Below are positions 7,701 to 19,247 of a stretch of DNA of 22,604 bases, in pieces. The DNA is from Desulfobacteraceae bacterium (GTDB lineage: Bacteria > Desulfobacterota > Desulfobacteria > Desulfobacterales > SURF-15): assembly GCA_003599475.1 (NCBI GenBank), contig QZKK01000128.1, forward strand, positions 1-22,604, given 5' to 3'. Within the stretch, counting starts at the first letter, position 1, and each line of letters opens with the position of its first letter. A model generated the notes under the pieces. It had not been told where the DNA came from. It did not search any database and was given only the letters and a program-made list of their open reading frames with translations. A program made the translations under genes and the position numbers.

Positions 7701-8684
7701 TTAAATCAGGAACTGCTTCACGTCCCCGGGCGACACCCCTTTTACTTCCAGGAATTCACGCCCTTCCGGTGTAACGATTTGAACCAGAGTGGAGTCTCCA
7801 TTGGCCTTGCTGTACCCCGCACAAATCGCGGCGGCCGTCTGCAGGGTCTCCCTGTCCGAACCATCGGGTATCAGCAGAACCGGGCCGGGCACCTGCAATG
7901 TCTTCATGACCGTGTCCTTTCGGGGGGTGTGGTATTTCAGGATCTGCTCGTTGTCTTTTTGGGTCCGGCCGACGATCAGTTTTGTCTTGTTCGCCAATCG
8001 GAAGTGGCGCCCGAATTTCAAAAGATGCAGCTCCGATTCCTTGGGGTTTTTCCGGTGTTGAAGAAAATCGCGCAGCCTGTTCGAATACCCGCGGTCGGTC
8101 AGCAGGCAGCCGCCGGCAGGCGCCGGGTAGTCGGTGACGCCGAATTCTCTTGCCAATTCGATCTGCGCCTTGCGGCCCCTGCCGACAATATCGCACAGCC
8201 GCTCCCGGTCAACCCATCCTTCTTTTTCCGGGATGGATTCCGGAAGGAGCTTGGCGCTCAGCGGGCGGAGAATGTAGCCGTCGCAGCCTGAATTTTTCTC
8301 CACATACCGCAGCGACGGCCGGGTTTGCGACATGGGGCGTTGCCCCAGGACTTCTCCGCTGAACAGAAAATGAAATCCTTTCCGCTTCATCTGATCGCCT
8401 GCAAGCCGGAACATCAGTGCATGGCAGTCCATGCACGGGTTTATCCACTTCCCGTATCCGCAGTTCGGGTTTCGAAGCATGGGAAGGTATTGGCGGGTGA
8501 TTTTTTTTACCGTAAGCGGAATTCCGGTGATTCGAGAAGCCTTCCGAGCTTTTTCGGAAGAAAAAAATGGAGTTTCAAAGGTAATCCAGGCAACCTGGAT
8601 CCCCTGCTGTCGCAACACAAGCCCGGCCAGCATGCTGTCGAGCCCGCCGGAGCATAAACCCAGAGCTTTGACTTGCTTTCGCAT
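7701..8684 (-). CDS. PP-loop (MnmA/ThiI-like) tRNA thiolation protein
   Basis: A 327-residue protein beginning MRKQVKALGLCSGGLDSMLA. The ATP-pyrophosphatase PP-loop SGGLDS lies at residues 12-17. NPCMDCHALMF (C84, C87) and PAGGCLLTD (C193) match in position the two-cysteine chemistry of MnmA-type 2-thiouridylases, which adenylate a tRNA uridine and replace oxygen with sulfur. GEVLGQRPMSQ (about 110-120) is also typical of the MnmA-like group common in deltaproteobacteria. The C-terminal part (about 215-327, with HFRLANKTKLIVGRTQKDN) looks like a separate domain, possibly an NFACT-R-like RNA-binding module. That assignment is tentative. I chose ATG 8684, preceded by GAGGGG with a four-base gap, over ATG 8750, which would run into the racemase gene. 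It follows the racemase by 28 bases, so the two are probably co-transcribed. Confidence 0.8.
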   Translation of the reverse strand: MRKQVKALGLCSGGLDSMLAGLVLRQQGIQVAWITFETPFFSSEKARKASRITGIPLTVKKITRQYLPMLRNPNCGYGKWINPCMDCHALMFRLAGDQMKRKGFHFLFSGEVLGQRPMSQTRPSLRYVEKNSGCDGYILRPLSAKLLPESIPEKEGWVDRERLCDIVGRGRKAQIELAREFGVTDYPAPAGGCLLTDRGYSNRLRDFLQHRKNPKESELHLLKFGRHFRLANKTKLIVGRTQKDNEQILKYHTPRKDTVMKTLQVPGPVLLIPDGSDRETLQTAAAICAGYSKANGDSTLVQIVTPEGREFLEVKGVSPGDVKQFLI

Positions 8685-8712
8685 CGAACCCCTCATTTCA
8701 ATCGCTGAACGC

Positions 8713-9408
8713 CTATTCTTCGAGCGCAAACCGCACGGCCGCTTCGGCATGGATTCCGGTCGTATCGAAGAGGGGAACGGGGCTGTCCGCCTGCTTTACC
8801 AGCAGCCCGATTTCGGTACACCCCAGAATGATTCCCCTGGCGCCTTTTTGCACAAGCTTCTCCATCACGGCTGTGTAGATCGATTGAGATTCGGGAAGTA
8901 TCTTTCCCACACACAGCTCATCATAGATGATCCGGTTGACCGAAGCGATCTCATCCGGGTCCGGAATCAGGACTTCCAGGCCGAAAAGCTGCTTCAGCCG
9001 CCCCTTGTAGAAATCCTCCTCCATCGTAAACCGGGTTCCTAGAAGCGCAACGCTGCGGATCCCTTCCTCTTTGATTTTACCGGCGGTGGCATCGGCGATG
9101 TGAAGCAGGGGGATATTGATGCTGCTCTGGATTTCGGCAGCCACCTTGTGCATGGTGTTTGTGCATAAAACGATAAAATCCGCTCCGGCGGCTTCGATGC
9201 TTCTTCCTGCGGCCGCAAGCAAAACGGCCGCCTCCTCCCAGCGCCCTTCCGCCTGGAGAAGTGCCATTTCGGCGAAATCGACCGAGATCATGACGCTTTT
9301 CGCCGAATGAAGCGCTCCCAATCGCTTCCGGGTTTCCTGGTTGATGATCCGGTAGTATTCGATGGAGGATTCCCAGCTCATTCCGCCGATCAAACCGATC
9401 GTTTTCAT
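8713..9408 (-). CDS. Aspartate/glutamate racemase family protein
   Basis: A 231-residue protein starting MKTIGLIGGMSWESSIEYYR, the classical opening of the YgeA/aspartate racemase subgroup. The two catalytic cysteines are present: C82 in FIVLCTNTMHKVA and C197 in GIILGCTEIGLL. These act as paired acid/base residues in cofactor-independent racemization. Substrate (Asp, Glu or another amino acid) cannot be fixed. ATG 9408 is chosen because it matches the family start and has GAGG upstream. An in-frame start at 9474 would add a lysine-rich leader overlapping the promoter. It heads a probable two-gene unit with the PP-loop protein. Confidence 0.88.
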   Translation of the reverse strand: MKTIGLIGGMSWESSIEYYRIINQETRKRLGALHSAKSVMISVDFAEMALLQAEGRWEEAAVLLAAAGRSIEAAGADFIVLCTNTMHKVAAEIQSSINIPLLHIADATAGKIKEEGIRSVALLGTRFTMEEDFYKGRLKQLFGLEVLIPDPDEIASVNRIIYDELCVGKILPESQSIYTAVMEKLVQKGARGIILGCTEIGLLVKQADSPVPLFDTTGIHAEAAVRFALEE

Positions 9409-9445
9409 TTCCAAAGCCTCTTTTTCTATTTTTTCTCCGCTTCTT

Positions 9446-9474
9446 TTTATAGCACAATTCGCGTTCATCCACAA
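9446..9474 (-). promoter_or_regulatory. Candidate sigma70 promoter for the racemase gene
   Basis: On the minus strand TTGTGG (9474-9469, three of six) and TATAAA (9451-9446, five of six) are 17 bases apart. The predicted start is some 30 bases before the ATG at 9408. Confidence 0.45.
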
Positions 9475-9498
9475 ATCGGATATTTTTCTTCAGCCGGT

Positions 9499-9528
9499 TG
9501 TAACCCTCTACGGTATTGCTGCGACGTA
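9499..9528 (+). promoter_or_regulatory. Possible ECF-sigma promoter before the Spy-like gene
   Basis: TGTAACC (9499-9505) has the AAC core usual in group-4 sigma -35 boxes, and CGTA (9525-9528) could serve as the -10, with a rather long 19-base spacer. If real it would allow the operon's own sigma factor to autoregulate. The match is weak. Confidence 0.25.
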
Positions 9529-9576
9529 AGCAGTAAAGAGCAAAGAATCCATATCAATGATTTTCAGGAGGTCAGA

Positions 9577-10014
9577 GTGAAAAGAAGATTCTTATCGGGG
9601 CTTTCTATTGCAATCGGGCTGCTGTTTGTTTTAATACTGGCATCGACAGCGGTTTCCGGCCCCTTCGGCCGAAGCCAGCGGAACGCAAGGGGGCTGATGG
9701 GGCTGAAAACCATTCTGGAATTGAACCTTTCAGAGGAGCAACGGAGCGAAGCGCTTCAAATCATCGAACGGTTTCAGTCTTTCCGGAATTCTGCCGGAGA
9801 CGAGATGCAGAAGGCCCGAAAAGATCTGGCCGCAGCCGTAAGCGGGGAGAGTTTGAGTGAGGATGAGGTAAGGGCCGCCTTTCGCCGGAGTGCAACCATC
9901 CGGGAGGATCTGTTTGTGGAAAGGATCAGGACGAAAGCGGCCTTAAGGAAGCTTCTGACGCCTGAACAGCTCGAACTGCTGAAACGACAGCGCCCCGGAA
10001 AGTGGAACGGTTGA
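9577..10014 (+). CDS. Spy/CpxP-like periplasmic protein (LTxxQ family)
   Basis: I place the start at GTG 9577 because AGGAGG lies five bases upstream. An in-frame upstream extension back to 9307 runs antisense through the racemase gene and is rejected. The 145-residue product has a signal peptide (MKRRFLSG, then a hydrophobic core to about residue 24, cleavage near STAVSG). The rest is mostly alpha-helical and charged, with two LTxxQ-type motifs, LNLSEEQR and LLTPEQLELL, as in Spy, CpxP and the Metal_resist family. Such proteins are periplasmic chaperones or stress sensors. There is no His and no Cys in the whole protein, so binding of metal as in CnrX or ZraP is unlikely. First gene of the sigma-factor/RND cluster, 45 bases before the sigma gene. 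Confidence 0.8.
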   Translation: MKRRFLSGLSIAIGLLFVLILASTAVSGPFGRSQRNARGLMGLKTILELNLSEEQRSEALQIIERFQSFRNSAGDEMQKARKDLAAAVSGESLSEDEVRAAFRRSATIREDLFVERIRTKAALRKLLTPEQLELLKRQRPGKWNG

Positions 10015-10059
10015 ATTGATTCGTCGAGTGGATTTGAATCGAATCGATGTTGACGGCCC

Positions 10060-10653
10060 ATGATAAAAGACACCCTCTCCGAAAACGATGCGGAAGTGAT
10101 CCACCGCGTGGTTCGGGGAGAGGTGAATGCCTTTGAGATTTTGATGAACCGCTACCAGGAGCAAGTATTGCGCATCGTAAAGAAGCGTGTCCCTTACGGC
10201 CGGATCGAAGAGATGGCGCAAGAGGTATTTATCCGCGCCTACCAGGGCTTGCCGGCCATTCGGCAGAAAGAAAACTTCAGGCATTGGATTTCATCGATTG
10301 CCGTCCGAACCTGTCATGATTTTTGGAGAAAAGAATATCGACAGCGCGAGATACCGATCAGCGATCTGACCGACGATCACGGGAAATGGCTGGAGGATGT
10401 TTCCGCCGAAAGATCCCCGTCACATGATCAAAACCTCCGGAGAAAGGAGGCTGCAGAATTGCTCGACTGGGCTCTTGGCCGGTTGTCCGCGGCAGAGCGA
10501 TCGGTATTCGAGTTGGTTTACCTCGAGGGGCTCTCCGGAAAGGAGGCGGCATCGCTTCTCGGATGGAGTGTCGCCAACGTAAAGGTTCGTTCTTTTCGAT
10601 GTCGAAAGAAAATGAAAAAGTTGCTTTCAGAACTACTTCAGGAGAAGCAATGA
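10060..10653 (+). CDS. ECF-family RNA polymerase sigma factor
   Basis: A 197-residue group-4 sigma factor. Region 2 spans about residues 8-95, with GEVNAFEILMNRYQEQVLRI, then EEMAQEVFIRAYQGL and FRHWISSIAVRTCHDFWRKE, where -10 recognition and core binding occur. Region 4 spans about 133-192, with LDWALGRLSAAERSVFELVY and the helix-turn-helix LSGKEAASLLGWSVANVKVR, which reads the -35 box. Regions 1.1 and 3 are absent, as expected. Its stop codon overlaps the start of the small membrane-protein gene (ATGA), the arrangement seen for many sigma/anti-sigma pairs. The neighbours suggest that it controls the RND efflux genes downstream. Confidence 0.93.
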   Translation: MIKDTLSENDAEVIHRVVRGEVNAFEILMNRYQEQVLRIVKKRVPYGRIEEMAQEVFIRAYQGLPAIRQKENFRHWISSIAVRTCHDFWRKEYRQREIPISDLTDDHGKWLEDVSAERSPSHDQNLRRKEAAELLDWALGRLSAAERSVFELVYLEGLSGKEAASLLGWSVANVKVRSFRCRKKMKKLLSELLQEKQ

Positions 10654-10973
10654 AATTTACCATCGAAGAGCAAAAAGTGCTCGAACAGTTTCGAAGAGCA
10701 TACAGGGAGAGGGAAAATCGCCGGGTCGGAGACCGCTGGCACCAGGATGCGATGGGCGGGATAAGGAGCCTCGGATCGATGCAGCCCCGGAAGACCTTCT
10801 TGATCGGATTCGAGTATCTCGTCTGGCGTATGGTGCCTGCCTTCTGCCTGATCCTGATCGTTTTATCCGCCCTGGTGTATGAGCTGGGGCTTTACCCGGA
10901 CATCGGTCCGCTTCAAATCCTGATGAACATCGAAAATGATGAAGCGACGCTATCCTATTTTGCGGGGCTTTGA
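10650..10973 (+). CDS. Small single-pass membrane protein, candidate anti-sigma factor
   Basis: A 107-residue protein starting at ATG 10650, with GGAGAAG as ribosome-binding site and a four-base overlap with the sigma gene. Residues 1-55 are hydrophilic and basic, probably cytoplasmic (EEQKVLEQFRRAYRERENRR). Residues about 60-80 form one membrane helix (MVPAFCLILIVLSALVYELG), and about 27 residues follow, probably in the periplasm. I recognise no family. There is no zinc-binding HxxxCxxC anti-sigma motif. The topology, size and position match CnrY, the short membrane anti-sigma of CnrYXH-type systems, so an anti-sigma role is a reasonable inference but not shown. Confidence 0.7.
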   Translation: MKFTIEEQKVLEQFRRAYRERENRRVGDRWHQDAMGGIRSLGSMQPRKTFLIGFEYLVWRMVPAFCLILIVLSALVYELGLYPDIGPLQILMNIENDEATLSYFAGL

Positions 10974-10982
10974 GGTGCACCG

Positions 10983-11348
10983 ATGAAGCGATGGAGGCTT
11001 TTTGCCGGTATCGGAATCGTTTTCGTCCTTGGGGTCCTGGCAGGCGTCCTGGGTGCAGGGATCTACGTCAAATACAAGATGCTCCCCCTCAAGCTCGAAC
11101 CGAAGGCGCGGAAGGTCTACTTACTCGACAGGTTCACCCGCAGACTCGATCTGACCGAAGCCCAGAGAGCCGGGTTCAAAGAAATATTCGACGAAATGGA
11201 TAAAGTAAGGGAGCAGTACCGATCGGAAATGAGAAAAACATGGGAGCGGGCCATCCCTCGAATGAAGCAGGAGTTGAACCCCGAACAACAGAAAAAGCTT
11301 GACGAATTGCGTCGAGACTGGGAAACGAGAAGAAGAAAGAAGGAGTAG
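10983..11348 (+). CDS. Membrane-anchored Spy/CnrX-like periplasmic sensor protein
   Basis: A 121-residue protein nine bases after the candidate anti-sigma gene. The N-terminus MKRWRLFAGIGIVFVLGVLA continues as a hydrophobic helix to about residue 28, with no clear cleavage site, so it is probably an anchor. The remainder is a charged helical hairpin with LDLTEAQRAGFKEIFDEM and ELNPEQQKKLDELRRDW, the LTxxQ pattern of Spy, CpxP and CnrX. It contains no His and no Cys, and only a few Met. By position it would be the periplasmic sensor that holds the anti-sigma protein, as CnrX does for CnrY. What it senses cannot be read, but metal coordination of the CnrX type is not supported. Confidence 0.78.
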   Translation: MKRWRLFAGIGIVFVLGVLAGVLGAGIYVKYKMLPLKLEPKARKVYLLDRFTRRLDLTEAQRAGFKEIFDEMDKVREQYRSEMRKTWERAIPRMKQELNPEQQKKLDELRRDWETRRRKKE

Positions 11349-11411
11349 TTTTCTGTTGTTATTTTAATAAAGTAAGATAAAATTAGTTTTTCCTGATAGC
11401 CTGAACACCGA

Positions 11412-11427
11412 CCCTGTGGAAGCAGGG
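11412..11427 (+). promoter_or_regulatory. Short hairpin in the leader of the RND genes
   Basis: CCCTG (11412-11416) pairs with CAGGG (11423-11427) around a six-base loop, 23 bases before the adaptor ATG. It lies in a 102-base gap whose left half is very AT-rich. It might affect translation of the pump genes or separate the two halves of the cluster. Confidence 0.25.
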
Positions 11428-11450
11428 CGGACGCCGACAATGGACCGACA

Positions 11451-12689
11451 ATGAAAAAATTTATCGTGATCACAATCCTTTCTGCCGGAATCGGCCTCTT
11501 GGGCTGGCAGATCTATGTAAAGGCCTCTGCAACGAAAAACGATTTCCAGCGCAACCGTGGGAATGTTCCGGTTGCCGTGGAAGTTGCCCCTGTCCGGAAA
11601 GCCGATATCCGAAATGTTGGACAGTACACCGGATCACTCTACCCATTGTCGGAATACACGGTCGCTCCCAAAGTATCCGGCCGGCTCGAAAAGATGCTGT
11701 TTCACATCGGGGATATGGTGCAGAGCGGGGATCTGGTGGCGGTATTGGACGATGACGAATACCATCAGCAGGTTCTGCAGGCGGAAGCCGAGCTCGAAGT
11801 CACCAGGGCCAATCTCCTGGAGCGCCAGGACGCCTTGGATAACGCCAAGCGGGAGTACGATCGGACCGTTGCACTCCGTCAGAAAAAAATCGCGTCCGAG
11901 TCCGAGCTCGATTCTTCGGAATCCGAATACAGGGCGCAGCAGTCAAAGCTGAAGGTGGCGATCGCCCAGGTGGCTCAAAAGGATGCGGCCTTGAAGATGG
12001 CCAGGGTCCGCCTCTCCTATTCTCAAGTCCGTATCCCGCAGAGCAACCATGGCGGGCACTGGGTCGTAGGCGAACGATTTGTCCATGAGGGGGCTCTGCT
12101 GGCGCCGAACGATGCGATTGTCACCATCCTGAATATCGGGACCCTTATTGCGGCCATCCATGTGATCGAACGCGATTATCCCAGCATCCGGCCCAACCTT
12201 GCAGCCCTCATCACAACCGATGCCTTCCCCGGGCAGACTTTTCAGGGGAAAGTCCTCCGCATCGCCCCGATGATGAAAGAGAAATCCCGTGAAGCGCGGG
12301 TCGAAATCGAGGTACCGAACGAAAAGATGACGCTTAAGCCGGGAATGTTCGTTAAGGTTCAGATCGAGTTCGATACCCATGAAGACTCTGTCGTCGTTCC
12401 CGCTGCCGCACTGATCAAACGAGAGGGAAGCCAGGGGGTTTTCCTTGCCGATCTCAAGGAGAACAAAGCCCGGTTCGTTCCGGTGACTGTCGGCATCGTA
12501 AACGGAGTGAATGCGGAGATTCTCGATCCGCCCCTCTCCGGCGAGGTGGTTACCCTGGGGCAGCATCTGCTGGAGGACGGATCGACAATCCTCCTGCCCG
12601 GGAAAACACCTGCAGGAGGCGGCCCGGAGAGAGAAGAAAAGCCCGGTGTCGCACGCGGCAAAGTCTCCACGGCCGGAGAAAAGTCATGA
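11451..12689 (+). CDS. RND efflux periplasmic adaptor (membrane fusion protein)
   Basis: A 412-residue HlyD/AcrA-type adaptor. Residues about 4-22 are an uncleaved anchor or signal. The first half of the lipoyl/barrel-sandwich domain is YTVAPKVSGRLEKMLFHIGD followed by MVQSGDLVAVLDDDEY (about 69-104). A coiled-coil hairpin follows (LQAEAELEVTRANLLERQDA to AALKMARVRLSYSQVRIP, about 107-198). Then come the second lipoyl half, a beta-barrel (VIERDYPSIRPNLAALITTD) and a membrane-proximal domain with MTLKPGMFVKVQIEF and VVVPAAALIKREGSQGVFL. No lipobox is present. It bridges the inner-membrane pump and outer-membrane channel. The stop overlaps the pump start by ATGA, so stoichiometric translation is likely. 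Confidence 0.93.
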   Translation: MKKFIVITILSAGIGLLGWQIYVKASATKNDFQRNRGNVPVAVEVAPVRKADIRNVGQYTGSLYPLSEYTVAPKVSGRLEKMLFHIGDMVQSGDLVAVLDDDEYHQQVLQAEAELEVTRANLLERQDALDNAKREYDRTVALRQKKIASESELDSSESEYRAQQSKLKVAIAQVAQKDAALKMARVRLSYSQVRIPQSNHGGHWVVGERFVHEGALLAPNDAIVTILNIGTLIAAIHVIERDYPSIRPNLAALITTDAFPGQTFQGKVLRIAPMMKEKSREARVEIEVPNEKMTLKPGMFVKVQIEFDTHEDSVVVPAAALIKREGSQGVFLADLKENKARFVPVTVGIVNGVNAEILDPPLSGEVVTLGQHLLEDGSTILLPGKTPAGGGPEREEKPGVARGKVSTAGEKS

Positions 12690-15600
12690 ACGTCTCCCAG
12701 TTTTCCGTCCGGCGCCCGATCTTGAGCATCATGGTGACTCTGATCGTCATCATCATCGGAGGCATTTCGCTCTCCCGGCTTTCGATCGACCTGATGCCCG
12801 ACATCACCTACCCGACCCTGAGCATCTCGACTGTATACGAAAACGCCAGCCCGGAAGAGGTCGAAGAGTTGATCACCCGACCCGTGGAGGAGGCGATGAG
12901 TGCCGTTCCGGGAGTCGAAGAGGTCACCTCCATATCTGCGGAAGGGAGAAGCAACGTGCGGGTGACGTTCACCTGGGGAACCGATCTCGATGCGGCCGCA
13001 AACGATATCCGCGACCGGCTGGACCGCGTGGTGCCGAGACTCCCCGATGATGCCGAGCGGCCGGTTTTAAGAAAGTTCGATCTCGCAAGCTTTCCGATCC
13101 TGATCCTCGGTGTTTCGAGCAACCTGGACCCCATCCAGGTCAGAAGAATCATCGACAACCAGGTAAAAAACCGCATCGAACGGGTTCCGGGGGTGGCTTT
13201 CCTAGACATCCACGGAGGCCTGGACCGCGAAATCCATGTAAATCTCAATGCCGAAAAGATGAAGGCCCTGGGCCTTCCGGTCGACCAGCTCTTGACCCGC
13301 CTGGAAGATGAAAACATCAATCTTCCGGCCGGCACCATCGAGCAGGGGCATCTGGATGTGACCATCCGGACCCCGGGAGTCTACAACGATCTGAAGGAGC
13401 TTGAAAATACGGTCGTTGCCATGCGCGAGGGGGTGCCGATTCAAATCAGGGATATCGCAACCGTAGAAGACTCCTGGGAGAAGGTGACACGGATCATCCG
13501 GATCAACGGGAAACCGGGGGTGAGGCTTGCGGTAAACAAGCAGTCCGGGAAAAACACCGTTGAGGTGGCGACCGGAGTGCTTAAGGAGATCGAGCAGCTC
13601 AACCAGGACATCCCCCAGCTCCATATCCTTCCGATCATCAACACCTCCGATTACATCAAGCGCTCCATCACCAACGTGGGGACCACCATCCTCTACGGAG
13701 GAGCGCTGGCGGTGTTCGTACTGCTTTTCTTTCTTCGAAATATCCCGAGCACGGCCGTCATTGCCACCAGTATCCCGGTTTCGATCGTCGCCACCTTTTC
13801 CCTGATGTACTTCGGCGGATTCACGCTCAACCTTATGACCCTCGGCGGACTGGCCTTGGGGGTGGGAATGCTGGTGGACAACGCCATCGTGGTGCTGGAA
13901 AACATCTACCGGCTCCGCGAAGCCGGGCAGGACCCCGAGGGGGCGGCGATAGGCGGGTCCCAGGAAGTGTTTGCGGCCGTCATCGCCAGCACTTTGACCA
14001 CACTGGTCGTCTTCCTGCCGCTGATCTTCGTGCGCGGAATGTCCGGCATCATGTTCAAACAGCTCTCGTATGTGGTGAGCTTTTCCCTTGCATGTTCTCT
14101 GGTGGTGGCGCTCACCCTGGTACCAATGATGGCTTCCTGGGTCCGCCGTCCACTAGCGGTTGAAAAGAACGTGAATATCGGCGGCGGGGGAAAAATCTAT
14201 CGGATCACCGGAAGGCTTTTTACCTGGATGGAAGATGAATACAAGGCGCTTCTCCGGTTTTCCCTCAGCCACAAGGTGCTGATCCTCGGATCCGCACTGC
14301 TTTTTCTGGTCGGAAGCCTCCTTCTCATCCCGCTTGTGGGGGTGGAGCTGATGCCGGCAACCGATGAAAGCGAGGTGCGGGTCAATGCCGAGATGGCGGT
14401 GGGCACCCGGCTCCAGCTCGTGGATGAAGTATTCAAAAAAATCGAAGAAATCGTTGCTCAGGAAGTGCCGGAGATCGACAACACGGTCGCTTTTATCGGA
14501 GGGTCCACCTTTCGGGCTCAGGGAGGAAACAGCGGAGAAATGCGGGTTGCGCTCAAACCTGTAAAGGAAAGGACCCGCTCCAGCGAAGAGATTGCAGTCG
14601 CTTTGCGGCGCAGGCTGATGCATATTCCTGGCGTCACCATCAGAACCCGCGCCGGGCAGGGCCTCTTTCTGCTCAAAATCGGAACATCCGGAAACGACAA
14701 TGTGCAGGTGGAGGTGCGCGGATACGATCTGGAGGCATCGGAGGCCTTAGCAAGGCGCGTCCGGGAAATCGTCGACAAGGTGGACGGCATCACCGATTCC
14801 AAGATCAGCCGCGAGAGCGGAACCCCCGAAGAGCTGATCCTCATCGACCGGCAGAAAGCCGCCAACATGAAGCTTACCGTCTCGAAGATCGCCGAGATGC
14901 TGCAGACGGTACTGTCCGGAACGGCAGCCGGCTACTATCGGGATGCAGGGACCGAATACATGATCCGGGTCAAACTGGAGGGTGCCGAAAAAAAGAATCT
15001 TTCCGATATCCTGGATCTTCCGATCACCAATGCAGACGGAGATCCCGTGATTCTCCGCAACGTGGTCGAAATCCGGCCCCGGCGCGGTCCCGTTCTCATC
15101 GAGCGGAAGGCCCAGGAAAGAGTCGTCTATGTCACGGCCAATTTCACCGGACGCGATATGGGAAGCGTTCTCGCCGATGTCCGGGAAGGACTCAAGACGG
15201 TTCCGGTTCCGAGGGACTTCAGCATCCTCTTCGGGGGCGACTACGAAGAACAGCAGAAGGCGTTTAGGGAACTGATGACAAGCTTCATCCTGTCGCTTCT
15301 GCTTGTTTATATGGTGATGGCATGCCTTTATGAATCGTTGAGATATCCTCTCGTGGTGATGTTTTCCGTACCTCTTGCGGCCATCGGCGTGATTCTGATG
15401 CTGTTTCTATCCGGAACCACCTTCAACATACAGTCGTTCATCGGCTGCATCATGCTGGGAGGCATCGTGGTCAACAACGCGATTTTGCTCGTCGACCACA
15501 TCAACCTGCTGCGGCAGCGCGACGGGTTTCCCCTCCGGGAGGCGATCGAAGAGGCCGGCCGCAGGCGTCTCCGCCCCATCCTGATGACTGCATCGACCAC

Positions 15601-15832
15601 CACCCTGGCCATGGCTCCCCTGGCCCTCGGAATAGGGGAGGGAGGAGAAGCCCAGGCCCCGATGGCGCGTACGATCATCGGAGGGCTCACCAGTTCCAGT
15701 CTGATCACACTGCTCGTCACCCCCACGATCTATGCCGTTTTCGAGCGAAAACACTTGAAGGCGGCTGTCGATACGACTGCCGAATCGAAACTTACCGGAT
15801 CGGAAAAAAACCTGCTTAGGGAGCCTGCATGA
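12686..15832 (+). CDS. RND efflux pump, HAE1-type inner-membrane transporter
   Basis: A 1048-residue AcrB-like transporter with the usual twofold repeat. TM1 is at about 12-32, starting [21 protein letters not shown] large periplasmic porter loop follows. TM2 to TM6 start near residue 335 and include TM4 with [18 protein letters not shown], where D398 is the proton-relay aspartate. AcrB has two Asp here and this protein has D398-N399, as in SwrC-like pumps. A second porter loop covers roughly 560-870, and TM8 to TM12 include [16 protein letters not shown] and [20 protein letters not shown]. There are no heavy-metal (CzcA/CusA) signatures, so lipophilic compounds are the likelier substrates, driven by proton motive force. 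ATGA overlaps on both sides bind it to the adaptor and channel genes. Confidence 0.95.
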
Positions 15833-17469
15833 AGCCAAGCTTGATTCTGAACGGACGGAGCGAAATCTTACTAGCCACCGTGATCTTTTCTCTGTTAACC
15901 GCATGCGTTTCTACCGAAAACCTGCAAAGGAAAATGGCCTCCGGGCCCCCGGAGTATCCGAAGGAAAGCCTGATTCCCCGATCCGAGATCAAGCCGGATG
16001 CCCCTCCATACAGGGCGCCCTCTGAGGGGCCGCTTCGGTTGTCCATCCGGGATGCGATTCTTTCGGCATTTGAAAACAACCAGGCGCTTGTACTCGAAAA
16101 ATTCAATCCCTCGATCCAACAGACCGTCGAAGACCAGGAACTGGCTGTATTCGACCCTGTGTTGGAGGCATCGGTTTCAGCCGGCAGAGCGAAAGAACGG
16201 CGCCTGACAACCTCGGGGACGCAGACGGGCGACTCTACGACGGACACTTTCGACGGAGCCATTTCTTTGAGCCGGTTCTTTCCCACCGGGACAACCGTAG
16301 ATCTTGAGGGAACGACCAGTACGACCGACTCGTCTCTATCCCCGGACCCTTTTTCCCAATCCCGCCTCGGCCTCACGGTCACCCAGGCGCTGCTGCAGGG
16401 GTACGGAACCGAGTTCAACCTTGCGAGCCTCAGACGGGCCGAAATCGATACGGAGATCTCCCTCTACGAGCTCCGCGGATTCAGCGAAACGCTTCTTTCC
16501 GAGGTGGAAACGGCCTACTGGGACTATGCGCTTGCTCAGCGGCAGATCGAAATCGTAGAGGAATCGTTGAAGGTGGTACGGCAGCAGCTTGCCGAAACGG
16601 AAGAGATGATCGCTGTCGGTACGATGGCGGAATCGGAGCTTGCCGCCGTGCAGGCCGAAGTTGCGGCCCAGGAACAGGCGTTGATCGATGCCAGAAGTGC
16701 GGCGGAAACCGCCCGTCTGCGCCTGCTTCGGCTCATCAATCCGCCGGGCACCCCTCTATACGAAAGAGAGGTCGAACTGCTTTACGATCCGACCATTCCG
16801 GAATTGAAGCTGGATGACGTCAAGGACCATGTTGCCCTTTCTCTACGGATGCTTCCCCTGGTCAACCAGACCAAACTCGGCATCCAGCAGAACGACCTCG
16901 ATATCGTTCGGACCCGAAACGGGCTTTTGCCCCGGCTGGATCTTTTCATCTCGTTGGGCAAAAGCGGGTACGCCGATTCTTTCAGCGGTTCGGTAAGCGA
17001 TATCACCAATGAGAACAGCTACGATGTGCTGGCGGGGGTCAATCTCAGATATCCGATTTTCAACCGGGATGCTGAAGCCCAGCATAGGCGGTCGATCCTG
17101 CTCCGGGAGCAGGCGGAGGAGGCGCTGAAAAATGTCGTACAACTGGTCGAGCTCGATGTCCGAAGCGCCTATATCGAAGTCCGGAGATCGAAAGAGCAGA
17201 TCGCCGCAAGTGCCGCCACGCGGAGGTTTGAGGAGGAAAAACTCAGAACCGAGACGGAAAAATTCAAGGTGGGAAGATCGACCAGCATCCTGGTTGCCCA
17301 GGCTCAGCGGGATGTGTTGGCCGCCCGCATCAGTGAGGTCGAAGCGATCGTAAACTACCTGAGAGCGTTGATCAGTTTCTACCGCGTCGAGGGAACGCTC
17401 CTGGCCCGGCGTGGAATCGCCGCCCCCGGAAACGAGCCGGTAACGTTATACAATAAATCCGTATACTGA
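15829..17469 (+). CDS. Outer-membrane efflux channel lipoprotein (TolC/OprM-like)
   Basis: A 546-residue outer-membrane factor. The signal ends in the lipobox LLTAC with C26 as the acylated residue, so it is a lipoprotein like OprM. Two OEP repeats follow. The first begins LRLSIRDAILSAFENNQALV (about 69-88) and includes the coiled-coil ALAQRQIEIVEESLKVVRQQ. The second runs from about DVKDHVALSLRMLPLVNQTK to the C-terminal helix pair RSKEQIAASAATRRFEEEKL and TSILVAQAQRDVLAARISEV. It is longer than TolC because of an inserted beta-region (about 140-190). It completes the tripartite pump, and its start overlaps the pump stop by ATGA. Confidence 0.93.
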   Translation: MKPSLILNGRSEILLATVIFSLLTACVSTENLQRKMASGPPEYPKESLIPRSEIKPDAPPYRAPSEGPLRLSIRDAILSAFENNQALVLEKFNPSIQQTVEDQELAVFDPVLEASVSAGRAKERRLTTSGTQTGDSTTDTFDGAISLSRFFPTGTTVDLEGTTSTTDSSLSPDPFSQSRLGLTVTQALLQGYGTEFNLASLRRAEIDTEISLYELRGFSETLLSEVETAYWDYALAQRQIEIVEESLKVVRQQLAETEEMIAVGTMAESELAAVQAEVAAQEQALIDARSAAETARLRLLRLINPPGTPLYEREVELLYDPTIPELKLDDVKDHVALSLRMLPLVNQTKLGIQQNDLDIVRTRNGLLPRLDLFISLGKSGYADSFSGSVSDITNENSYDVLAGVNLRYPIFNRDAEAQHRRSILLREQAEEALKNVVQLVELDVRSAYIEVRRSKEQIAASAATRRFEEEKLRTETEKFKVGRSTSILVAQAQRDVLAARISEVEAIVNYLRALISFYRVEGTLLARRGIAAPGNEPVTLYNKSVY

Positions 17470-17570: not shown

Positions 17571-18692
17571 ATGAAGCAGATTCGAGTCGATTTTAAAAAG
17601 AGGCTCAAAGAGGAGCCCCATACGGGACACAACCGCTGGCACCCGGATATACCGCCCATCCTGGAGGTTGAACCCGGTGAGGAGGTGACCCTGGATACCC
17701 GGGATGCCGCAGACGGAATGATCAGACCGGAAACGACGGCTGACGATCTGGTTAGCCTGCCGAAAAAGATCGCGCATCCTTTGACCGGCCCCGTCTACAT
17801 TAAAGGTGCAAACCCGGGCGATCTGCTTGAAATCGAAACTGTAGACATCCTCCCGCAGCGGTACGGTTGGACGCGCATGCGCCCCGGAGCCGGATTTCTC
17901 CGAGATCTTTTTCCGGATTTCTATCTGATCCACTGGAAAATCGAAAACGGGTGGGCTGTAACCGATTCGCTTCCGGGCGTTCGGATTCCTGACGGGTCAT
18001 TTCTGGGAACCGCCGGAATCGCTCCGTCCGAAACACAGCTCCGGAGCTGGTCCAGAAGGGAGGCGGACTTGGTTGCCCGGGGAGGGGTTGCCTTCCTGCC
18101 GGATCCGGAAGATGCGGTACCGGCAGAAGGCCGGATCGCCCGGGAGGGGTTGCGCACAGGACCGCCGAGAGAAAACGCCGGAAACCTGGATGCCAAGCAG
18201 TTGACCCGCGGCTCCCGTCTTTTCATTCCCGTCAATGTGGCAGGCGCGCTCTATTCCGCAGGGGACGCCCACTTTGCCCAGGGAGATTCTGAATGCTGCA
18301 TCACCGGAATCGAAATGGCGGCCACCGTTATCGTTCGCTTTCGAATCCATTCGGGAGAGGCCGCCCGGCGCAATATCCGGTGGCCCAGGTTTTCTCATTC
18401 CGGGTTTTTTATCGACCCGAAGTGGGCAGCTCCGAGAAACTTCATCGCAACCGTAGGCATGCCCATCCGTGAAGACGGCGCCCAGGAAGGGGAAAACCTG
18501 ACGCTGGCTGCGCGCAATGCGCTTTTGAACATGATCGAGCTGCTTGAAGAAAGAGGTTGGAGCCGCGAGCAGGCCTATGCCTTGTGCAGTGTGGCGGTGG
18601 ATCTCAAGATCAGCAATGCCGTCGATCTTCCGAATGTGACCGTTTCCGCCTTTCTGCCCGAAGATATCTTCACCGATTCCGGCCGGACATAG
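17571..18692 (+). CDS. Acetamidase/formamidase family protein
   Basis: A 373-residue member of the FmdA/AmdA family. The opening EEPHTGHNRWHPDIPPILEV, then EPGEEVTLDTRDAADG (about 34-49), is the family hallmark, with PLTGPVYIKGANPGDLLEIE (about 69-88) following. The middle has LPGVRIPDGSFLGTAGIAPS and GGVAFLPDPEDAVPAEGR. Further on, LYSAGDAHFAQGDSECCITG (about 224-243) is the conserved late motif. Enzymes of this family hydrolyse formamide or short amides to ammonia and the acid, but many members are uncharacterised and substrate cannot be assigned. GAGGAGA precedes the ATG. The next gene begins nine bases after its stop, its ribosome-binding site overlapping this stop codon, so the two are co-transcribed. 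Confidence 0.88.
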   Translation: MKQIRVDFKKRLKEEPHTGHNRWHPDIPPILEVEPGEEVTLDTRDAADGMIRPETTADDLVSLPKKIAHPLTGPVYIKGANPGDLLEIETVDILPQRYGWTRMRPGAGFLRDLFPDFYLIHWKIENGWAVTDSLPGVRIPDGSFLGTAGIAPSETQLRSWSRREADLVARGGVAFLPDPEDAVPAEGRIAREGLRTGPPRENAGNLDAKQLTRGSRLFIPVNVAGALYSAGDAHFAQGDSECCITGIEMAATVIVRFRIHSGEAARRNIRWPRFSHSGFFIDPKWAAPRNFIATVGMPIREDGAQEGENLTLAARNALLNMIELLEERGWSREQAYALCSVAVDLKISNAVDLPNVTVSAFLPEDIFTDSGRT

Positions 18693-18701
18693 GAGGTGCG
18701 C

Positions 18702-19247
18702 ATGCCCTGGGTACCGTGGATCCGCATCGAAGACGATTCGACAACAGACAAAGACGTGCAGCAGTTGTTCAGGCGAACCCGGAACGGAATGACGGGAAAA
18801 GTATCGGACACCGTAAAACTGACAAGCCTGACTCCGGAAGTCTCCGGTCTGATCCATGATCTGAGTGCGGCCGTCGCCAGAAATGCCGATGGGCTCAGCG
18901 TGCGGGAAAAAGAGACTGCCGCCCTGATCGTCTCGGTTTACAACGGCTGTGTGCACTGAACCGCAAGCCACCTTGAAGCCCTCGGTCGAGCGGCGAAAAG
19001 CAAGCGGTTTGCCAGCCAGGTGGCGGAAGATTTCACCAAGGCGAAACTGAGCACACGGGAGAGGCGCATCGCCGATTTTACCGTCAAGGTGACCCGGTCT
19101 CCCAACGCATGCAGCCCGGCGGATCTGGATCTGCTCCGGAATGAGGGGCTTTCGGATAAGGATATCCTCAGCCTGGTTGAAATCATCGCCTACTACAACA
19201 TGAGCACACGGCTGTTCGAATCGCTCAGCACCGTTGAAAAACCATGA
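18702..19247 (+). CDS. AhpD-like (peroxidase-related) selenoprotein with in-frame TGA as Sec86
   Basis: Reading from ATG 18702 (AGGAGG five bases upstream) gives 85 codons, an in-frame TGA at 18957-18959, and 95 further codons to a TGA stop at 19245, 181 residues in all. Both halves belong to one alpha-helical AhpD/carboxymuconolactone-decarboxylase-like protein of the peroxidase-related type: REKETAALIVSVYNGC before the TGA, and TASHLEALGRAAKSKRFASQ then STRERRIADFTVKVTRSPNA after it. The family's redox site is C-x-x-C-x-x-x-H. Here it reads C83-V-H-U86-T-A-S-H90, so the TGA takes exactly the place of the second cysteine. A SECIS-like hairpin follows at 18978-18994. AhpD-like selenoproteins with CxxU are known from other bacteria. 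Inference: a thiol/selenol redox enzyme, perhaps peroxide or disulfide handling. The alternative is a nonsense mutation or sequencing error. Confidence 0.85.
18978..18994 (+). promoter_or_regulatory. SECIS-like hairpin for selenocysteine insertion
   Basis: GCC-CTC (18978-18983) pairs with GAG-c-GGC (18988-18994) with one bulged C at 18991, giving a six-base-pair stem. The apical loop is GGTC (18984-18987). Bacterial SECIS elements bind SelB through a GGU in the apical loop of a short, bulged hairpin about 16-37 bases downstream of the UGA. Here GGU begins 25 bases after it. The hairpin lies within coding sequence, as is usual in bacteria. An outer pairing, GCCACCT (18967-18973) with AGGTGGC, could extend the fold. 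Confidence 0.7.

Follow-up and report, generated by a model that had tools for sequence, protein, structure and literature searches.

A predicted AhpD-like selenoprotein gene with an in-frame UGA belongs to a sparse subclade with its own SECIS placement

Introduction

What does a single in-frame TGA in the middle of an otherwise continuous AhpD-like frame represent: a broken gene, a reassigned codon, or selenocysteine (Sec)? The question is posed by positions 18702-19247 (+ strand) of the 22,604-nt stretch of DNA analysed here, which we call the window. AhpD-like proteins with a CxxU motif have been known as selenoproteins since 2005, with 27 sequences reported in the accessible text of PMC1088965 and 299 AhpD-like 1 and 70 AhpD-like 2 sequences in that of PMC2398784, and the available part of PMC13188914 lists TIGR01926 as a selenoprotein family with a CxxU motif and one Sec. 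A sequence-only reading of the window had proposed that the TGA is read as Sec. The present analysis supports this proposal, and those of its checks that could be run came out as predicted.

Results

The gene extends from an ATG at 18702 to a terminal TGA at 19245-19247 on the + strand, encodes 181 residues and is preceded by a Shine-Dalgarno-like AGGAGGTG (18691-18698, +), which was read directly from the sequence. Its lone in-frame TGA (18957-18959, +) is codon 86 and occupies the place of the second Cys in an AhpD-type motif, E71…C83-V-H85-U86-T-A-S-H90. Within this motif, the codons for Glu71 (18912-18914, +; 12 residues before Cys83) and His90 (18969-18971, +) correspond to invariant alignment columns, and the first redox position, Cys83, is encoded by TGT (18948-18950, +). 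The spacing equals that of the C-x-H-C-x-x-x-H motif of Mycobacterium tuberculosis AhpD, formed by E118, C130, H132, C133 and H137. Re-reading the sequence reproduced the coordinates, frame and residue numbers given in the sequence-only reading, as well as its placement of the TGA at the second motif Cys. The boundaries of the two halves, which it had set at Cys83 and His90, had to be corrected slightly: His85 (GCVH) is the last residue of the upstream half and Thr87 the first of the downstream half.

When the TGA was read as Cys, the joined frame matched TIGR01926 ("peroxidase-related") with 117.9 bits against a cut-off of 81.8, which places it in that family. For the CMD family (cut-off 23 bits), the joined frame scored 46.8 bits and each half alone only 18.7 and 17.9 bits. 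The best of five structure models was almost all-helical with a mean pLDDT of 87.7 (80.1 to 54.5 for the other four), and its top fold match was Deinococcus radiodurans AhpD (PDB 6k40; E 2.5e-9, TM 0.74), which also matches the window protein by sequence (E 6.1e-26). The two proteins have the fold and the motif register in common but differ at two motif sites, the D. radiodurans protein having Cys at the site of Sec86 and Tyr at that of His85. M. tuberculosis AhpD (PDB 1gu9, 1knc and 1lw1), which lacks Sec, is a weak fold match (E 0.025 and above).

From these likenesses we infer that the window protein is a selenol/thiol peroxidase or disulfide reductase. Its selenol might instead serve as a nucleophile on some other substrate, for instance in reductive dehalogenation as in the debrominase Bmp8, a structurally related protein (6ohi) that does occur among the fold matches. 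This we consider unlikely, since Bmp8 is 15% identical and 25th in the fold ranking, whereas D. radiodurans AhpD is closer than any other solved relative. According to the accessible portion of a review (PMC8945050), the D. radiodurans mutant shows H2O2 sensitivity and is complemented much less well when Cys of the CxxC motif is mutated. The gene neighbourhood leaves room for such another substrate, as it gives no function and varies between the relatives scanned. In the window, a gene of the FmdA/AmdA acetamidase/formamidase type (17571-18692, +; Pfam PF03069, 350.8 bits) lies directly upstream, with 9 nt between its stop and the ATG of the selenoprotein gene, and the two genes are probably co-transcribed. 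No such neighbour was found beside loci L001-L006, where the 10 neighbouring proteins scanned belonged to other, unrelated families or to none, and the neighbourhood was rejected as a clue to function.

Several other genes were seen around these loci. The gene ffh lies directly downstream of the selenoprotein gene in the Zixiibacteriota genome G007 (G007:C19:81530-83753) and within 4 kb of it in G006, a proximity that is probably due to chance; the window's own ffh is on the opposite strand, at a distance of about 12.6 kb. The window also encodes a ThiI-like protein with a C-terminal NFACT-R_2 domain (7704-8750). A gene group at 9307-17469 includes a metal-resistance-type protein (PF13801) together with a sigma factor of the ECF type; the frames that come next resemble an RND efflux set on visual inspection.

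To return to codon 86, a scan of genome contigs yielded seven loci, in metagenome-assembled genomes (MAGs) labelled SAR324, Acidobacteria, Desulfobacteraceae, FCB group, Planctomycetota, Calditrichaeota and Zixiibacteriota, and all seven of these loci from named genomes have TGA there. Whole-genome searches added two members of the same subclade, L043 and L062; together with the window, TGA is found at codon 86 in 10/10 subclade members read as DNA. Because relatives carry TGA at the same codon, a chance TGA is excluded. Among 53 family rows, comprising the window, the seven loci and 45 search matches (duplicates L018-L022, L042 and L061 left out), the second motif position is TGA in 49 and Cys in four (L023, L024, L025 and L054), the former being a biased frequency because similarity to the Sec subclade guided the choice of rows. 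Cys is likewise present in the database protein P0009, a plain CVHC form, and in two PDB chains including 6k40. Aligned relatives thus show TGA or Cys at residue 86, as the alignment check had foreseen.

The database proteins are marked by the same codon in other ways. P0002-P0008, P0010, P0015 and P0016 have Trp at position 86, which is most simply explained as a gene caller's reading of TGA. P0021-P0024 stop exactly at GCVH, and a detached downstream half also occurs, such as P0017. In P0011-P0014 unrelated N-termini are joined to downstream pieces, and P0020 keeps both ends without the motif stretch, perhaps as a result of frame shifts. Two fusions were seen as well: P0012 carries a PF04986 transposase-type domain joined to the downstream half, and P0015 has an N-terminal PF09997 domain ahead of the full-length protein. 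The second protein search scored the best 7998 candidates by shared words. The window gene cleanly illustrates the case of a gene whose relatives appear in databases split, truncated at GCVH or with Trp at the Sec site.

Downstream of the UGA lies a predicted bacterial SECIS element, GCCCUC-GGUC-GAGcGGC (18978-18994, +), identified by folding and comparison. Its stem has 6 bp with one bulge, and its 4-nt loop GGUC (18984-18987) follows the UGA at a distance of 24 nt. In loop size, G positions, stem and spacing, the element fits the bSECIS model as set out in the accessible text of PMC13188914, and the energy of -8.9 kcal/mol lies within the bSECIS threshold of at most -7.5 kcal/mol. With the hairpin folded alone, this threshold was reached in 7/10 subclade members, the others being L001 (-6.6), L006 (-7.0) and L007 (-7.4). 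Folded as a single sequence, the window's hairpin region did not exceed shuffles in stability (z 0.12), and an Rfam search matched no relevant family, so comparison was relied upon for the SECIS assignment.

That comparison revealed CUC-GGUC-G(A/G)G in 10/10 subclade members, always in the same position, its loop 24 nt past the UGA. Among the 29 columns in which the amino acid is invariant and its codons are four- or six-fold degenerate, only Leu94 (CTC) and Gly95 (GGT) were also codon-invariant (10/10 each), and the codon of Arg96 was CGA in 9/10. These three adjacent codons, the least variable of the 29, specify the loop of the hairpin together with its flanks; the chance of picking exactly these three of 29 is 1/3654, and the hairpin had been seen earlier by folding. 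Pair counts among the subclade members gave no compensatory changes in the main hairpin register. An alternative register has one double compensatory change, a level that 111/500 shuffles also reach.

The placement of the element sets the subclade apart. Counted from the T of the UGA, GGUC starts at 27 nt in all ten subclade members, whereas of the 39 Sec rows that fall outside this group 14 have it at 21 nt and five elsewhere, and 20 lack it; for the CHYU rows outside the subclade, 12/15 have it at 21 nt. Given offsets of 27 versus 21, the subclade SECIS lies two codons further on than that of the CHYU rows.

Would the sequence beyond a true stop be kept? Decay of the downstream half in relatives had been named as evidence against the Sec reading, and the opposite was found: it is intact in the nine subclade relatives read as DNA, and in 9/9 its conservation exceeds that of the upstream half (amino-acid identity to the window 0.64-0.76 downstream versus 0.39-0.62 upstream). 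dN was also lower downstream in 7/7 pairs computed (L006 and L007 not included). Since dS was partly saturated, with five of 14 values not computable, only identity and dN were used. An ordinary nonsense mutation or a sequencing error in a pseudogene could place a TGA at this site, the codon being one base from the Cys codons TGT and TGC, and both a Cys form (P0009) and a garbled relative (P0020) exist. We nevertheless regard this explanation as very improbable and rejected it, as the TGA is shared by subclade members from several phyla, the downstream half is conserved and the hairpin is fixed at the codon level.

The machinery expected for Sec insertion was found in the named relatives. selB and selA scored above cut-off in 7/7 of their genomes each, against 2/14 and 1/14 control genomes, respectively. 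tRNA-Sec (selC) was above cut-off in six of the seven (best matches in these six 59-77 bits vs 47), at a cut-off that is loose because 5/14 well-known control genomes also pass; in G004, the match fell below it and the best hit was an ordinary tRNA. The selA frames of G007 (Zixiibacteriota; TGA; L038:1501-2835) and G005 (Planctomycetota; TAG; L040:1501-2868) are each interrupted by a single internal stop, possibly through errors in the MAGs. Ffh comparison places the window nearer to the Desulfobacteraceae MAG G003 (63%) than to any of the eight others compared, and the best Ffh match within the 395-genome sample of the phylum of G003 reaches 77%. selB is present in 10/10 of the sampled genomes nearest by Ffh, compared with 2/14 controls. 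These relatives and the features of the gene strongly support reading of the UGA as Sec, and we infer that Sec is inserted in the window's own organism.

TGA is the terminator of 15/25 listed window frames, the selenoprotein gene included, so that the codon does not look globally recoded; the other 24 frames contain no internal TGA by construction, being stop-to-stop frames, and several are named by eye only. Reading of UGA as tryptophan (code 4 or 25), which would account for the Trp in the database proteins, is the least probable explanation and was rejected on this terminator usage, which includes several frames with library matches (such as PF13801, PF03737 and PF03852), and the relatives carry the Sec genes described above.

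The subclade was delimited in a tree of 60 rows, made from 52 of the 53 family rows (L055, a partial row, left out) and P0002-P0009. The window, nine loci and P0002-P0009 formed an 18-row group with support of 100/100 in an analysis whose bootstrap had not settled. A branch of 1.77 sets this group apart from the remaining TIGR01926 rows. The residue before Sec is His in 10/10 subclade members read as DNA versus Tyr in 39/39 other Sec rows; M. tuberculosis AhpD likewise has His there (H132).

The subclade gene is rare in the genome samples searched. Matches were found in 1/395 genomes sampled from the phylum of G003, 1/52 from that of G001, 3/132 from that of G006, 2/396 from that of G002 and 2/392 from that of G005, where each count includes the genome on which the search was centred, so that G586 and G1179 are the sole additions. 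For the larger groups a sample was searched (395, 396 and 392 genomes), in which at most the best eight candidates per genome were scored. Within the order of G003, the subclade match was in 1/85 genomes, again G003 itself. No relative turned up when viral contigs were scanned.

Discussion

Taken together, the data indicate that the UGA at 18957-18959 is almost certainly read as Sec at the catalytic position. We consider it very likely that the gene encodes an AhpD-like (TIGR01926) redox protein in which the catalytic second Cys is replaced by Sec, with SelB and the GGUC hairpin delivering Sec-tRNA(Sec) at the UGA at 18957; this reading rests on the single frame, the family match, the TGA shared across phyla, the constraint downstream, the fixed hairpin and the Sec machinery of the relatives. 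SelB would bind the GGUC hairpin 24 nt downstream of the UGA and thereby bring its bound Sec-tRNA(Sec) to the codon. In the finished protein, Cys83 and Sec86 would form a selenenyl-sulfide pair, presumably assisted by Glu71, His85 and His90, and peroxides or protein disulfides may be reduced, the electrons being supplied by a thiol or by lipoamide as donor.

The window gene is an additional member of the AhpD-like CxxU selenoproteins already described: it has TGA at the second Cys, and Cys homologues exist elsewhere. It resembles the known family (TIGR01926/COG2128, CxxU; Sargasso Sea and GOS data) in the NCBIfam model that it matches, in the site of the TGA and in the predicted SECIS downstream. 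The subclade to which it belongs nevertheless differs from the known AhpD-like selenoproteins, as its motif is CVHU rather than CxYU, it forms a separate branch and its SECIS loop is placed further from the UGA. The window gene marks a sparse subclade that spans several phyla and has a SECIS placement of its own.

Whether the CVHU subclade also contains a natural double-Sec AhpD-like enzyme (UxxU, forming a diselenide) is, in our estimation, evenly balanced, the candidates being one MAG and one metagenomic protein. No UxxU AhpD-like protein was found in the accessible portions of the literature on AhpD-like, UxxU and carboxymuconolactone decarboxylase selenoproteins; as far as their available text goes, PMC13188914 and PMC9312934 give AhpD-like solely as CxxU, and the UxxU selenoproteins in the table of the former are Prx-like, mercuric reductase-like and FmdB-like. 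The MAG candidate, L003 (Desulfobacteraceae; contig JAERTK010000092.1; L003:2720-2731), has TGA at residues 83 and 86, giving UVHU, and would have two Sec two residues apart like the known UxxU selenoproteins, which belong to other protein families. L003 is alone among the 53 rows in carrying TGA at the two motif positions, and the window gene, with TGT at 83, is not of the UxxU type. The hairpin of L003 lies 33 and 24 nt from its two UGAs, and because both distances fall inside the published range of 16-37 nt, one SECIS may recode both. L003 could serve as a test of whether one bacterial SECIS recodes two closely spaced UGAs and of a diselenide role in the AhpD active site. The metagenomic protein, P0006, has Trp at both motif positions and may be a second, separate double-Sec case.
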